This document shows positions 4,186 to 40,569 of a DNA stretch of 42,067 nucleotides, piece after piece (position 1 is the first letter of the stretch; every line of letters starts with the position of its first letter). A program made the position numbers and the translations under genes. Source of the stretch: a virus; the IMG/VR virus record IMGVR_UViG_3300030090_005473, positions 1 through 42,067 of that record. One strand, 5' to 3'. Below the pieces are notes generated by a model, which did no database searches, was not told where the DNA came from, and saw nothing but the letters and a program-made list of their open reading frames with translations.

Positions 4186-4794
4186 ATGAGTATATACGAA
4201 GAGTCAGAAAAGAAACAACCGTTGATAGAAGAACAGCCAGAAGGTAAATTATATGAATCGTTACATAATCAATTAGGAACTCAATTAGATTATCAAGATT
4301 CTGTATTATTTATCAATGATGAAATAGGAGATCATACGTTAACAGATTTTATAATACGTATGAGAAGTTTACTACAACATAGAAAAAATAAAAATGCGCC
4401 AATCAATTTAATGATCAATAGTCCAGGTGGAGATATATATGAAATGTTTGGTATTATTGATTACATTGAAACATTAGATGTAAAGGTGAATACAATTTGT
4501 AGAGGGAGAGCATTTTCTGCCGCGGCCATAATTTTAGTATGTGGCACTGGTGCAAGAATGATGAGTAAACGATCAACGGTTATGTTTCATCAATCATCTA
4601 GTTTTTTAGGAGGTAAGATGTCCGACATTACAGCATATTTAGATAATGTTAAAAGTTTAGAAAAGACTATTTATGCGATGTTAGCTTCAAAAACAAAAAA
4701 AGATGCAGAATGGTGGAAAAATAAAATGAGATCGGATATGTTTTTAACAGCAGAAGAATTATTAGAAATCGGAGTAATAGATCAAATTATATAA
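4186..4794 (+). CDS. clpP: ClpP-like serine protease
   Basis: 202-aa peptidase of the ClpP (S14) fold. Core features: LFINDEIGD, the NLMINSPGGDIYEMFGI strand-turn (75-91), a nucleophile elbow GRAFSAAA with Ser111, a catalytic-His motif MFHQ with His135, and RSDMFLTAEELLEIGVID with Asp184 completing the triad. All three catalytic residues are present, so activity is expected. In cells ClpP degrades unfolded clients handed over by Clp ATPases. A phage copy might redirect host proteolysis, or act in capsid maturation as some ClpP-fold prohead proteases do. Its place in the early block, far from terminase and portal, favours the first. It is followed 3 nt later by the HD hydrolase gene. Confidence 0.9.
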   Translation: MSIYEESEKKQPLIEEQPEGKLYESLHNQLGTQLDYQDSVLFINDEIGDHTLTDFIIRMRSLLQHRKNKNAPINLMINSPGGDIYEMFGIIDYIETLDVKVNTICRGRAFSAAAIILVCGTGARMMSKRSTVMFHQSSSFLGGKMSDITAYLDNVKSLEKTIYAMLASKTKKDAEWWKNKMRSDMFLTAEELLEIGVIDQII

Positions 4795-8381: not shown

Positions 8382-8822
8382 ATGGAATCAAAATCATTTG
8401 TAAAGTTATTACGTAAAATTATTAGGGAAGAAGTTAGTAGAGCTGTAAAGCAAGTATTAACAGAATCTAATACAAATCAAGTTACTGATAATATATCATT
8501 GACAGAAATGTCTGCGGAACCAATGCCGAGAAGATCACGTACTAAAAAGAAATATACAAAAAATCCAATGTTAAATGATTTATTAAATGAAACAGCAGCT
8601 ACACCTGCTACTCAAGAATTAACAGATTATAGTACAATGAATTTTAGATCAGAAATGGCAGAAGCATTTGGAATGCAAAGAGGACCTCGAGCATTAGCAA
8701 CAACAGATGTACATGGAAAGCCAATTAATATGTCTAATGAAAAAGTTGCAAAGACAGTTGATTTGATGACAAAAGATTATTCAGCATTAATGAAAGCGAT
8801 AGATAAAAAGAAAGGCAAATAA
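8382..8822 (+). CDS. structural-operon protein with targeting-like N-terminus
   Basis: 146 aa. The N-terminus is an amphipathic basic helix (SFVKLLRKIIREEVSRAVKQVLTE) ending in LTE at residues 26-28, similar in style to the N-terminus of the gene at 36848. Two further (L/I)xE-type triplets occur (SLTE near 42, LLNE near 67), sites a T4-type prohead protease could cut. The middle is Arg/Lys-rich (PRRSRTKKKYTKN) and the C-terminus helical and basic. No family recognised. It lies between the gp5-like and gp25-like genes, 3 nt before the latter. Either a baseplate accessory or a protein packaged in the head; I lean to neither. Confidence 0.76.
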   Translation: MESKSFVKLLRKIIREEVSRAVKQVLTESNTNQVTDNISLTEMSAEPMPRRSRTKKKYTKNPMLNDLLNETAATPATQELTDYSTMNFRSEMAEAFGMQRGPRALATTDVHGKPINMSNEKVAKTVDLMTKDYSALMKAIDKKKGK

Positions 8823-34499: not shown

Positions 34500-34512
34500 T
34501 ATTTATATTAAA
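34499..34512 (+). promoter_or_regulatory. candidate late promoter 6, overlaps annotated start
   Basis: ATATTTATATTAAA, identical to copies 4 and 5, starting in the upstream stop codon. Its last base is the A of the ATG at 34512. If it is a promoter, transcripts would begin downstream of that ATG, and translation would have to start at the in-frame ATG at 34542. Confidence 0.48.
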
Positions 34513-36794
34513 TGAAAACACTAGGTCAACAAATAGTAGAAATGGCATTATCGGAATCACCGGTTAAAACTATATTAGTAGTTTATCCAGGCAGATTTCA
34601 GCCAATGGGACAACATCATGCTGCAGTATATAAAAAATTAGCTGCAAAATTTGGTAAATCAAATACATTTGTAGTAACATCAGATAAGGTCACATTACCT
34701 AAATCTCCATTAAATTTCAAAGAAAAATATTCAGTAATGAAAAAACATGGAATAACAAATGTTGTTCAAGTTCGAAATCCTTATCAAGCACAAGAATTGA
34801 CAAGTAAATATGATCCAGAAACAACTGCATTATTATTTGCAGTAGGTAAAAAAGATATGATGGAAAATCCTAGATTCAAAATAGGATTAAAGAAGAGCGG
34901 CGAGCCTAGTTATTTTCAAGATTATGAAAAAAATAAAAATAATTTACAACCATTTACTAAACATGGATATTTAGTTGTAGCACCTCATGTTGATATTCAA
35001 ATACCAGGATTTGGAGAAATGTCTGGAACTACTTTAAGACAAGTATTAGCAACTGCAGATGAAAAAACATTTGAAGATGTTATGGGATTCTTTGATCCTA
35101 AAATATATAACATGTTACAAACTAAGTTTTCTGCATTACGTACAGAAATGATTGAATCATTTATTATAAAAGAGGGTAGTTCAATCGGAGGAAGTAAAGC
35201 AATGGTTGATGATGGACCTCGATATTATTATGGAAATCAAAAAACATATCGAAAAAAATCAGAAGAAATGGCAAAACGATTAGGATATGAAGTTCTTAAT
35301 TATATTATAAAAGACGATCCTATAGAAGTTCATAACACAAATTATCCAGATGGCCCCCCATTAACTGTATCTTATTTTCCAACAGGAGTTAAAGGAGGCG
35401 AATATGCTGGTACAGATTATATTAAAGATTATAAAGGTAATCCTGCATATAAAATATGGCAAAAATATATTACACGTGTTGCAAAAATGACAGGATACAA
35501 ATTTTTAGATTTTCTAGGAGCAGATGTTTCTATAGATTCAAGTAAGGGAGAAGAATTGAAACCAACTACATTAAGAGAACAAGTATTAACAAAAAATTGG
35601 TGGTCAAATCAATTTGAATTAATTACAGAAGCAAAGGCAAATACACATTTAACTCATTTAGAAGAACTTGTTTTAACTCAAGGTAAAGCAGGATATAAAC
35701 AAGCCAAATCATTTTTAATAGAATTATTGAAAAATTTAGCTGGTAATTCAAATACTAAAATAAATACATCAGTTAAATGGGACGGAGCACCTGCAATATT
35801 TACAGGCATCAATCCTGAAAATGGAAAATTCTTTGTAGGTACAAAGTCAGTGTTTAATAAAGTACCTAAAATTAACTACACAATGGAAGACATTGATATG
35901 AATCATGGTCAAGCTCCTGGATTAGCAGATAAATTAAAATTGGCATTACAATATTTTCCAGCATTAGGTATAAAAAATATTCTGCAAGGCGATTTTATGT
36001 TTGATTCGAGTATGGTTAAAAATACAAATATAGATGGCAAACCACATTTATCGTTTAGACCAAATACTATAACATATGCAGTAGAATCAGATTCAGAATT
36101 AGGAAAAGATATTGCAGCCGCAAAAATTGGTATAGTATTTCATACAACATATCAATCATTACAGAGTGGTGCATCATTTGGTGCAGATGTCAGTGGATTA
36201 AACAAAACAAGAAATGTTTGGTTTGATGATGCATTCTTTAAAGATTCAACAGGTATTGTAACATTAACAGTTGAAGAAGCAAAAGAAGTTCAAACATTAA
36301 TAAAGAAAGCAGATTCAATTAAAATTAATTATGATAATTTACCAATGGCAGATCTCAATGTTTATCTAAATAAAGAAATAAAGTCAGGTCAATTTGTTAA
36401 TAATCCAAAAGTATCATTTAAAGCATTTCAAAAATGGTATCAAACAAATAGAATAGATAAACGAGTTGATAAATTAAAGTCTGAAAAAGGTAGAATGAAA
36501 GCGATTGCAGCCGGTCAAGAACAAATGAAAATGTTTCAACGAAGAAGACAAGACATATTAAATTTATTTCAAGTATCAAAATTATTATCAGAAGCCAAAC
36601 TTATATTTGTGAGAAAATATAATAATGCTATCTATAATACAAAACATTTTGTAGACGATGGAAAAGGAGGCTTGAGAGTTACTGCTCCAGAAGGATATGT
36701 TGCGGTTGATAGAATTGGTAATGGAGTTAAATTTGTAGATAGAGTAGAATTTAGTAGAGCTAATTTTGCTATGGATAAAGGCTTTACAAAATAA
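34512..36794 (+). CDS. putative head polyprotein: nucleotidyltransferase-like plus KxDG domain
   Basis: 760 aa. Residues 20-200 resemble a cytidylyltransferase-type Rossmann fold: ILVVYPGRFQPMGQHH (21-36, HxGH-like) and SGTTLRQVL (171-179, like the SxTxxR loop). Residues 222-370 are an unassigned alpha/beta part. Residues 374-690 contain VKWDGAPAIF (K422), FVGTKSVF and ILQGDFMF, recalling motif I (KxDG), IIIa and IV of ligase-type nucleotidyltransferases, though other motifs are unclear. I believe this part matches a phage family of unknown function (DUF6267-like; not checked). Sites of (L/I)xE form occur at LSE 13-15, IKE 219-221, ITE 371-373 and LSE 692-694, at domain borders. The N-terminus MKTLGQQIVEMALSE resembles T4 capsid-targeting peptides. 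ATG 34542 is an alternative start. Confidence 0.83.
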   Translation: MKTLGQQIVEMALSESPVKTILVVYPGRFQPMGQHHAAVYKKLAAKFGKSNTFVVTSDKVTLPKSPLNFKEKYSVMKKHGITNVVQVRNPYQAQELTSKYDPETTALLFAVGKKDMMENPRFKIGLKKSGEPSYFQDYEKNKNNLQPFTKHGYLVVAPHVDIQIPGFGEMSGTTLRQVLATADEKTFEDVMGFFDPKIYNMLQTKFSALRTEMIESFIIKEGSSIGGSKAMVDDGPRYYYGNQKTYRKKSEEMAKRLGYEVLNYIIKDDPIEVHNTNYPDGPPLTVSYFPTGVKGGEYAGTDYIKDYKGNPAYKIWQKYITRVAKMTGYKFLDFLGADVSIDSSKGEELKPTTLREQVLTKNWWSNQFELITEAKANTHLTHLEELVLTQGKAGYKQAKSFLIELLKNLAGNSNTKINTSVKWDGAPAIFTGINPENGKFFVGTKSVFNKVPKINYTMEDIDMNHGQAPGLADKLKLALQYFPALGIKNILQGDFMFDSSMVKNTNIDGKPHLSFRPNTITYAVESDSELGKDIAAAKIGIVFHTTYQSLQSGASFGADVSGLNKTRNVWFDDAFFKDSTGIVTLTVEEAKEVQTLIKKADSIKINYDNLPMADLNVYLNKEIKSGQFVNNPKVSFKAFQKWYQTNRIDKRVDKLKSEKGRMKAIAAGQEQMKMFQRRRQDILNLFQVSKLLSEAKLIFVRKYNNAIYNTKHFVDDGKGGLRVTAPEGYVAVDRIGNGVKFVDRVEFSRANFAMDKGFTK

Positions 36795-36847: not shown

Positions 36848-37378
36848 ATGAAAGAAAAATTATTGAGAGACATGATAAGAAAACAAATCAAATCATCTCT
36901 AACAGAAGCACCTGATATGGCTCGAAGCGCAGTTGGTGCTAGTCTAGGCCGAGTTGAAAAAATGGCCGGCGTTAAAATGTTAAAAAAAGCATTAGGTACA
37001 GGTTCACCAGCACAACAAGCAGCTGGTTTATTAAAAGTAGTTCAATCAATATCAGGTAATAATCCAACAGTAGGAAAGATGTTAGCTAGAATGATTATGA
37101 AAGGTGGTATTGCAGGAGCAGATACAGCACCAGTAGCAGAAGAAAATTATACCGCAGGAATTGATGATGGAAATGCAGCAATAGATGAAAATCAAGCATT
37201 ACAATCTAAAATGGGTAGAGTTGATAAAACACAAGCTATGAAACAATTAAAAAATCAATTAGGAAATAAACCAGCAACGGTTCAAACAGATTTTGTTATT
37301 GATTTGATTAATGGTTTAGATCTTAAGGATGCTGCTAAAAAAAGATTATTATTACAATTACGTAAAAATTTGAAATAA
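36848..37378 (+). CDS. putative head-internal protein with targeting-like N-terminus
   Basis: 176 aa, basic and Ala/Gly/Lys-rich, predicted helical. The N-terminus KEKLLRDMIRKQIKSSLTE is an amphipathic basic helix ending in LTE (18-20) followed by Ala, exactly the form a T4-type prohead protease would cut. The middle has two Gly/Ala-rich hydrophobic helices (VQSISGNNPTVGKMLARMIMKGGIAGA). The C-terminus, VQTDFVIDLINGLDLKDAAKKRLLLQLRKNLK, is a compact helical end. No family recognised. It sits between the putative polyprotein and terminase, beside the portal, so packaging into the head is plausible but inferred. Confidence 0.78.
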   Translation: MKEKLLRDMIRKQIKSSLTEAPDMARSAVGASLGRVEKMAGVKMLKKALGTGSPAQQAAGLLKVVQSISGNNPTVGKMLARMIMKGGIAGADTAPVAEENYTAGIDDGNAAIDENQALQSKMGRVDKTQAMKQLKNQLGNKPATVQTDFVIDLINGLDLKDAAKKRLLLQLRKNLK

Positions 37379-38988: not shown

Positions 38989-40569
38989 ATGTCAGTAAAG
39001 AAAAGCATAAAAGAAATAGTACGAGATGAATATAAAAAATGTTCGGTAGATCCCGTACATTTTATGCGTAAATATTGTATTATTCAACATCCTACTAAAG
39101 GTAAGATGTATTTTAATTTATATCCTTTCCAAGAAGATACATTAGATCAATTAAAAGATAATAGATATAATATTATTCTTAAATCTAGACAATTAGGTAT
39201 TTCAACTTTAACAGCCGGATATTCACTTTGGTGCATGTTATTCAAATCAGATTATAATGTATTAGTAATTGCAACAAAACAAGATGTGGCAAAAAATCTT
39301 GTTACAAAGGTAAGAGTGATGCATGATAATTTACCTAGTTGGTTAAAAGGAAAGGCGTTAGAAGATAACAAATTAAGCCTAAGATTCAAAAATGGCTCAC
39401 AAATAAAAGCTATATCATCAAAAGGAGATGCAGGTAGATCTGAGGCCTTATCATTATTAGTATTAGATGAAGCAGCATTTATTGATAGAATTGATGAAAT
39501 ATGGACAGCAGCACAACAAACATTAGCAACTGGTGGAGGAGCTATTATGTTATCAACACCAAATGGTACAGGAAATTTATTTCATAAAACATGGTGTGAT
39601 GCTGAAGCGGGCGGTAGATTTAATCCTATCAAACTTCATTGGACAGTTCATCCTGAAAGAGATGAAAAATGGAGAACAATGCAAACAGAATTATTAGGAG
39701 AAAAAAGTGCTGCCCAAGAATGTGATTGTGATTTTATTAGTTCTGGACATACAGTAGTAGATGGTCCTATCATTCAATGGTATGAACAAACATATGTAGA
39801 AGAACCAAAAGAAAGACGTGGTTTCGATTCAAATTATTGGATATGGGAGTATCCAAATTATTCATCATCATATGTAGTTGTAGCGGATGTCGCGAGAGGC
39901 GACGGCGGAGATTATTCAGCATTTCATGTATTAGATATAAAAACAATGCAACAAGTTGCAGAATATAAAGGCAAAATAGGAACAACAGAATATGGTAATA
40001 TGTTAGTAGCTGTTGCTACTGAATGGAATAATGCATTATTAGTAATTGAAAATGCAAACATAGGTTGGGCTGTATTACAAGTTGCGATTGATAAAGGATA
40101 TGAAAATTTATATTATTCATACAAACAAGATGCATATGTAGATGAAGATGTACATTTAAGAAAAGGATATGACTTAAAAGGTAAAGCACAAAAAGTTCCT
40201 GGGTTTTCGACTACATCAAAAACAAGACCTTTGATTATTTCTAAACTAGAAACATATTTCAGAGAAAAATCTCCAATTGTAAAGTCAAAACGATTGGTAG
40301 ATGAATTATATGTCTTTATATGGAATGGTTCAAGAGCAGAAGCACAGAGAGGATATAATGATGATCTTGTAATGTCATTTGGAATTGCATTATGGGTACG
40401 TGATACAGCATTAAGATTACATCAACAAGGAATAGATTTATCAAGAAAGGCATTAGGACATTTTGGTAAATCTAAAGGAGTATATACATCAACAAAAGAT
40501 ACTCCTAAAGAATGGCAATGGAAATCAGGTGACAAGGATAATGGAGATTTAACCTGGCTTTTAGATTAA
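38989..40569 (+). CDS. 17: terminase large subunit, gp17-like
   Basis: 526 aa. Packs DNA into the prohead: an N-terminal ATPase and a C-terminal RNase H-like nuclease. ATPase motifs: SRQLGIST (66-73, phage Walker A), LLVLDEAAF (156-164, Walker B with D160 and catalytic E161) and LSTPNGTG (188-195, coupling motif). Nuclease: VVVADVARGDGGDYSAF (296-312, metal ligand D300) and NDDLVMSFGIALW near the end with the last acidic residues. Length is shorter than T4 gp17 (610 aa) but normal for marine T4-like phages. There is no intein or intron. It is followed 28 nt later by the portal gene; in T4, sheath gp18 and tube gp19 lie in between and are missing here. Confidence 0.95.
   Translation: MSVKKSIKEIVRDEYKKCSVDPVHFMRKYCIIQHPTKGKMYFNLYPFQEDTLDQLKDNRYNIILKSRQLGISTLTAGYSLWCMLFKSDYNVLVIATKQDVAKNLVTKVRVMHDNLPSWLKGKALEDNKLSLRFKNGSQIKAISSKGDAGRSEALSLLVLDEAAFIDRIDEIWTAAQQTLATGGGAIMLSTPNGTGNLFHKTWCDAEAGGRFNPIKLHWTVHPERDEKWRTMQTELLGEKSAAQECDCDFISSGHTVVDGPIIQWYEQTYVEEPKERRGFDSNYWIWEYPNYSSSYVVVADVARGDGGDYSAFHVLDIKTMQQVAEYKGKIGTTEYGNMLVAVATEWNNALLVIENANIGWAVLQVAIDKGYENLYYSYKQDAYVDEDVHLRKGYDLKGKAQKVPGFSTTSKTRPLIISKLETYFREKSPIVKSKRLVDELYVFIWNGSRAEAQRGYNDDLVMSFGIALWVRDTALRLHQQGIDLSRKALGHFGKSKGVYTSTKDTPKEWQWKSGDKDNGDLTWLLD

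Follow-up and report, generated by a model that had tools for sequence, protein, structure and literature searches.

The 42,067-nucleotide viral contig IMGVR_UViG_3300030090_005473 (IMG/VR, positions 1 to 42,067; hereafter the window) carries terminase, tail and other late genes and, adjoining the terminase, a gene for a 760-amino acid protein made up of a short N-terminal tag, an NMNAT-like module, a middle module and a DUF6267 module (Table 1). Comparison of this protein with its relatives strongly suggests, at the level of sequence, that marine T4-like phages make a tagged polyprotein with swappable enzyme-like parts and conserved protease cut sites. We consider it likely that the window protein is a capsid-targeted modular precursor of head cargo, from which the prohead protease would release three pieces by cleavage at E15, E221 and E373. 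Relatives were gathered from IMG/VR and from phage records, and the sets were dereplicated before counting; a search of plasmids yielded no relatives.

Cleavage-type sites and the N-terminal tag

The open reading frame, the motifs GRFQPMGQHH (residues 27-36), SGTTLR (171-176) and KWDG, and four (L/I)xE triplets followed by a small residue, all listed in the original prediction, were confirmed, the triplets exactly where it had placed them. The triplets are LSE/S (13-15), IKE/G (219-221), ITE/A (371-373) and LSE/A (692-694), the slash marking the putative cut. Four occurrences of [LI]xE[AGS] are modestly above chance for a single sequence (mean of 0.99 in shuffled sequences of the same composition, P = 0.016), thus one sequence alone is weak evidence. 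The signal is strong for sites 15, 221 and 373 because they are conserved in relatives. An [LI]xE triplet preceded the NMNAT catalytic motif in 44 of 46 relatives, and was present within the linker between the NMNAT and middle modules in 47 of 48, against a background of 22% per 32-residue window. It was found at most 10 residues before DUF6267 in 37 of 38 relatives with this module inside the protein and in 70 of 76 with it at the N-terminus (about 9-10% in the background), and the border was kept in all 25 relatives whose last module was the GGAxGHM module described below. All these counts are of non-redundant sequences and not of independent events.

In aligned linkers the glutamate was present in 37 of 37 cases before DUF6267 and in 56 of 61 before the GGAxGHM module (GGA linkers). 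An aliphatic residue occupied P3 in every DUF6267 linker, and either P3 or P4 in those of the GGA type. Linker residues further upstream drift; the glutamate and the preceding aliphatic residue are nearly or fully invariant. Counted over 42 non-redundant full-length polyproteins, [LI]xE[AGS] reached 4.03 per 100 residues in the inter-module linkers versus 0.06 elsewhere, a 67-fold enrichment that is descriptive because the linkers were delimited by motifs picked after inspection of the data.

The predicted structures had ordered modules and disordered borders, with low confidence from residue 220 onward and over residues 358-378. The proposed site at E694 was rejected: it lies within an ordered DUF6267 helix (H322-349) with a predicted local distance difference test score (pLDDT) of about 96-98, and glutamate was found there in 25 of 75 relatives, the others having D, Q or R. 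Three of the four domain-border sites originally proposed are supported by their conservation and the fourth is not, and the three or four pieces envisaged earlier are reduced to the three delimited by conserved borders.

The first 15 residues, MKTLGQQIVEMALSE/S, end in LxE with a small residue at P1' and resemble the starts of the T4 internal proteins IPII and IPIII (MKTYQEFIAE/A) and IPI (MKTFKEF...ITE/A). In T4, the first ten residues of the IPIII tag suffice, the gp21 protease cleaves after L/I-x-E, cargo proteins are trimmed at their termini, and core proteins are cut into multiple fragments (PMC9026906). Stand-alone DUF6267 proteins also start with tags (MKFTEYLTE/A, MYSFKQYLNE/A and similar). 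Among 623,295 residues, tag-like peptides such as LGQWLANQILLTE occupied an N-terminus in 43 cases, directly preceded a GGAxGHM module in 17 and lay elsewhere in 10; the KxWW-type linker had no N-terminal counterpart among them. A prohead protease of the S77 (gp21) type was encoded in 18 of 24 records of relatives, most of which are fragments. In the L022 phage it lies about 8.4 kb downstream of the polyprotein gene and, if this spacing is applied to the window, the protease gene is expected outside it, just past the right end. The major capsid proteins of two relatives carry LVTE/A and IEE/S near the position of LTE/A in T4 gp23.

Virions of the cyanophages S-SM1 (PMC3037559), S-SZBM1 (PMC9146016), S-CREM2 (PMC10665884) and S-SCSM1 (PMC9602691, where S-CBWM1 is cited) were found to contain distantly related cytidylyltransferases of the phrog_395 type. 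The S-SZBM1 and S-CREM2 enzymes have tag-like starts (MRFRQFIIE/A and MKNFSSFLTE/A, respectively).

Modules and their exchange among relatives

The cytidylyltransferase-like first domain of the original prediction is supported by a phrog_395 match, a confident model and fold matches. The Pfam cytidylyltransferase match (residues 24-113) remained below threshold. Over residues ~20-210 the model had pLDDT values mostly between 83 and 97, and its Foldseek matches in the PDB were nicotinate-nucleotide and phosphopantetheine adenylyltransferases (NadD, NadM, PPAT), the best being to nicotinate-nucleotide adenylyltransferase (E 4.7e-5, probability 1.00). As modelled, residues 16-221 have an NMNAT/PPAT-like fold of the Rossmann-like type. 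SGTTLR conforms to the S-x-T-x-x-R motif, and its S171, G172, T173 and R176 are invariant in the alignment of relatives (A2). The position of the HxGH motif is taken by GxHH (PMGQHH), likewise invariant in A2; a remote relative, L337, carries PFHRGH there.

Residues 222-373 are a separate module to which no function is assigned. Its structure prediction, based on 34 sequences, was of low confidence and for this reason no fold is claimed. A true stand-alone middle module was not seen among the relatives. One relative, L182, encodes its NMNAT and middle parts in two different reading frames; it was considered as a natural split and set aside since it looks like a frameshift.

The C-terminal part matched Pfam DUF6267 (PF19782) at residues 377-756 with an E value of 9.4e-101 (338 bits, cut-off 27), which places residues 374-760 in DUF6267/phrog_455, a family of unknown function. 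The PHROGs matches of the whole protein were phrog_455 and phrog_395. Since phrog_455 also contains a cytidyltransferase sequence, the association between NMNAT and DUF6267 is already latent in that family. In the alignment used for the DUF6267 model (A6, which is A4 minus five rows from phage records) K65, D67, G68, E370, G371, V373 and K383 (A6 numbering) are invariant, and these residues supply motif I (KxDG), motif IV (EGxV) and the motif V lysine of ligases and capping enzymes. The model had a mean pLDDT of 84. Its top Foldseek matches were mostly DNA/RNA ligases or capping enzymes, none of them significant (best E 0.23, low probability), and searches of PDB sequences with the whole protein and with the DUF6267 profile gave nothing meaningful. 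DUF6267 is probably a remote ligase/capping-type nucleotidyltransferase, with strong motifs and a weak fold resemblance; the ligase-type last domain proposed earlier is thus supported, mainly by its invariant motifs.

In many relatives possessing the NMNAT and middle modules DUF6267 is replaced, at the same LxE border, by a module that starts with GGAxGHMxHPFDD (GGAxGHM module). The latter has its own motifs KTDG and EGxVF...YKLTG in ligase-like order, and no Pfam or PHROG family matched it significantly. A profile comparison between DUF6267 and the GGAxGHM module was not significant (probability 0.2), although the two have a similar order of motifs and one pairwise alignment extends into the swapped module. 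The module (L194:4463-5662 and relatives) is about 400 amino acids long and widespread in marine phages. At the GGA borders of L303, L305, L312 and L326, LLLM/GG stands for LLxE/GG, either an internal start codon or a loss of the site.

Other rearrangements were also found. The module order is reversed in three relatives (L052, L054 and L111), with the borders kept. L047 (5998-8847) has an inserted HELEH module, a possible zincin metallopeptidase, flanked by LILE/G and IHE/G; L065 has an extra HAD-like stretch that weakly matches polynucleotide kinase; and the 484-kb phage record has an additional ParB-like module. A small module, INIGDTVLMGKFKNK..., occurs in many relatives and is absent from the window protein. 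The cultured Microcystis phage Mel-JY01 encodes an NMNAT-like module followed by IIAE/GG and the GGA module, and an S77 protease is present in this phage as well. In cyanophages NMNAT and DUF6267 are adjacent separate genes. In Pelagibacter phage HTVC008M a zeta-toxin/polynucleotide-kinase-like ATPase starting with MIPFILKE/G (L003:6673-7335) is encoded two genes after DUF6267.

Proposed processing and rival explanations

For the window protein we infer cleavage, packaging, injection and catalysis along the following lines. The 15-residue tag would draw the precursor into the prohead core in the manner of T4, and a gp21-type (S77) protease would cut it after E15, E221 and E373. The products, an NMNAT-like enzyme of 206, a middle protein of 152 and a DUF6267 ligase-like protein of 387 amino acids, would be retained in the capsid and pass into the host alongside the DNA. 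Their likeliest purpose, which is a guess, would be to work early within the host on nucleotides or nucleic acids, for example by repairing NAD or RNA ends while host defences are active.

The LxE sites could also be relics of gene fusions, in which the former tag of each module became a linker and the protein works uncut. The same tag at the N-terminus of stand-alone DUF6267, the resemblance of internal GGA linkers to N-terminal tags and the adjacent cyanophage genes would fit such an origin. However, the glutamate and the aliphatic residue were preserved in linkers that otherwise drifted, the NMNAT/middle border has its LxE in 47/48 relatives although no stand-alone form of the middle module was seen, and the KxWW-type linker has no counterpart at N-termini; we regard relics as an unlikely explanation. 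Removal of the tag only, so that the modules are injected together as a single multi-domain protein in the style of polyvalent proteins, appears about as unlikely. The N-terminal site is indeed kept (44/46), phage polyvalent proteins were proposed to be injected as multi-domain proteins (PMC5512222), and T4 cargo is trimmed at the termini (PMC9026906), but the internal sites share the consensus of the N-terminal site and are equally conserved, and T4 gp21 does cut core proteins into multiple fragments (PMC9026906). Finally, the protein might be an ordinary, unpackaged late enzyme of nucleotide metabolism with LxE as a helix-capping feature of linkers, as could be suggested by cyanophage stand-alone genes that adjoin replication genes and by DUF6267 proteins without a tag. 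The 67-fold linker enrichment, the T4-like tag, the position of the gene amid late head and tail genes of this lineage and the detection of related enzymes in virions (PMC3037559, PMC9146016, PMC10665884) make this highly improbable.

Several observations weigh against a protease-processed head-cargo precursor, in addition to the post hoc choice of linker motifs and the counting of sequences rather than of independent events. No protease gene was found within the window, which stops at the portal gene. Among the stand-alone DUF6267 genes some are untagged (MAKANTH..., MAKNTHLEH...), and in 5 of the 61 GGA linkers M replaces the glutamate. Catalysis by the NMNAT-like module is doubtful because its HxGH motif reads GxHH. 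The virion cytidylyltransferases belong to a distant branch (phrog_395) and are encoded by stand-alone genes; authors of two of the four virion papers raised possible carry-over from the lysate (PMC3037559, PMC9146016, PMC10665884, PMC9602691), and the untagged DUF6267 protein S-SZBM1_141 did not appear in the text of the S-SZBM1 virion table.

A wider interpretation, which we advance tentatively, is that tailed phages have a true polyprotein strategy, in which one precursor with one tag, conserved border sites and exchangeable cargo (NMNAT, DUF6267 or GGAxGHM ligase-like, zincin-like, HAD-like and ParB-like modules) would at infection supply a matching set of enzymes, perhaps to counter host defences that deplete NAD or cleave RNA.

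Genomic context and relation to known systems

The order of neighbouring genes is retained in the 484-kb phage record. The gene immediately downstream of the polyprotein gene encodes a candidate second tagged head protein, and a tag-like start was also found in its relatives (LVKE/S, LKE/S; ...ALVKE/S in the L095 relative). Elsewhere in the window, a 146-amino acid protein (8382-8822) has the N-terminal sequence ...VKQVLTE/S with a second LTE close behind and may be a protease substrate; genes for a UvdE-type UV endonuclease and a ClpP-like protease were found at 1338-2423 and 4186-4794, respectively.

Table 1. Coordinates of the polyprotein gene, its parts and neighbouring genes in the window
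Feature	Position	Strand	Basis
Polyprotein open reading frame: capsid-targeting sequence / NMNAT-like / middle module / DUF6267	34512..36794	+	760 aa plus stop
Residues 1-15, MKTLGQQIVEMALSE, putative capsid-targeting sequence ending LSE/S	34512..34556	+	relatives, T4 comparison
NMNAT/PPAT-like nucleotidyltransferase module, residues 16-221	34557..35174	+	phrog_395 E 3.7e-6, model, Foldseek
Putative cleavage IKE/G, E221, NMNAT/middle border	35172..35174	+	47/48 relatives; model confidence <50 from residue 220
Middle module VDDGPRYYYG..., residues 222-373	35175..35630	+	alignment A3; one remote phage match
Putative cleavage ITE/A, E373, before DUF6267	35628..35630	+	conservation; residues 358-378 pLDDT <50
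DUF6267 module, residues 374-760: KWDG (422-425), EG (727-728), VKFVDR (739-744)	35631..36791	+	Pfam
E694, proposed site, rejected	36591..36593	+	helix location, poor conservation
Next gene, 176 aa, starting MKEKLLRDMIRKQIKSSLTE/A, candidate second head protein with a tag	36848..37378	+	sequence
Terminase large subunit, late head-gene context	38989..40569	+	phrog_2 E 4.9e-45

Head cargo processed by a prohead protease is a known kind of system. The window protein is similar to the T4 gp21 substrates IPI, IPII, IPIII and Alt in having an N-terminal tag that ends in (L/I)xE and is followed by a small residue, and similar to the T4 internal proteins in the phage-coded S77 protease (here in relatives) and in the putative host-directed cargo. 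T4 cargo is trimmed at the ends, whereas the conserved internal sites of the window protein would free several modules from one precursor. The cyanophage virion cytidylyltransferase/NMNAT (T4-GC190, phrog_395) belongs to the same superfamily, has a tag-like N-terminus and is often encoded beside DUF6267, but it is encoded by a separate single gene and is only distantly similar in sequence. Polyvalent proteins of phages and conjugative elements, which are multi-domain, mosaic and proposed to be injected with DNA (PMC5512222), are comparable in that several disparate domains are combined in one phage protein; their processing is ascribed to embedded peptidase domains, whereas for the window protein we propose a prohead protease acting in trans at LxE linkers. 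Head ejection proteins of phiKZ and SPN3US are also cut after glutamate by a gp21-like protease (PMC9026906), but the motif differs (S/A-x-E in phiKZ) and the proteins are unrelated. The openly licensed articles searched described no processing of this kind for a precursor that combines several enzymes and swaps its modules.

If the proposed processing is true, T4-like phages of the ocean would load several enzymes in equal numbers from a single gene, and the capsid protease would double as a processing enzyme, comparable to the situation with polyproteins of RNA viruses. The LxE rule would then allow cargo modules to be located, and their limits set, in many phage proteins that are still uncharacterised. 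DUF6267 could be given a route of delivery and a probable class of catalysis, and the recurrent presence of cytidylyltransferases in cyanophage virions would have an explanation.
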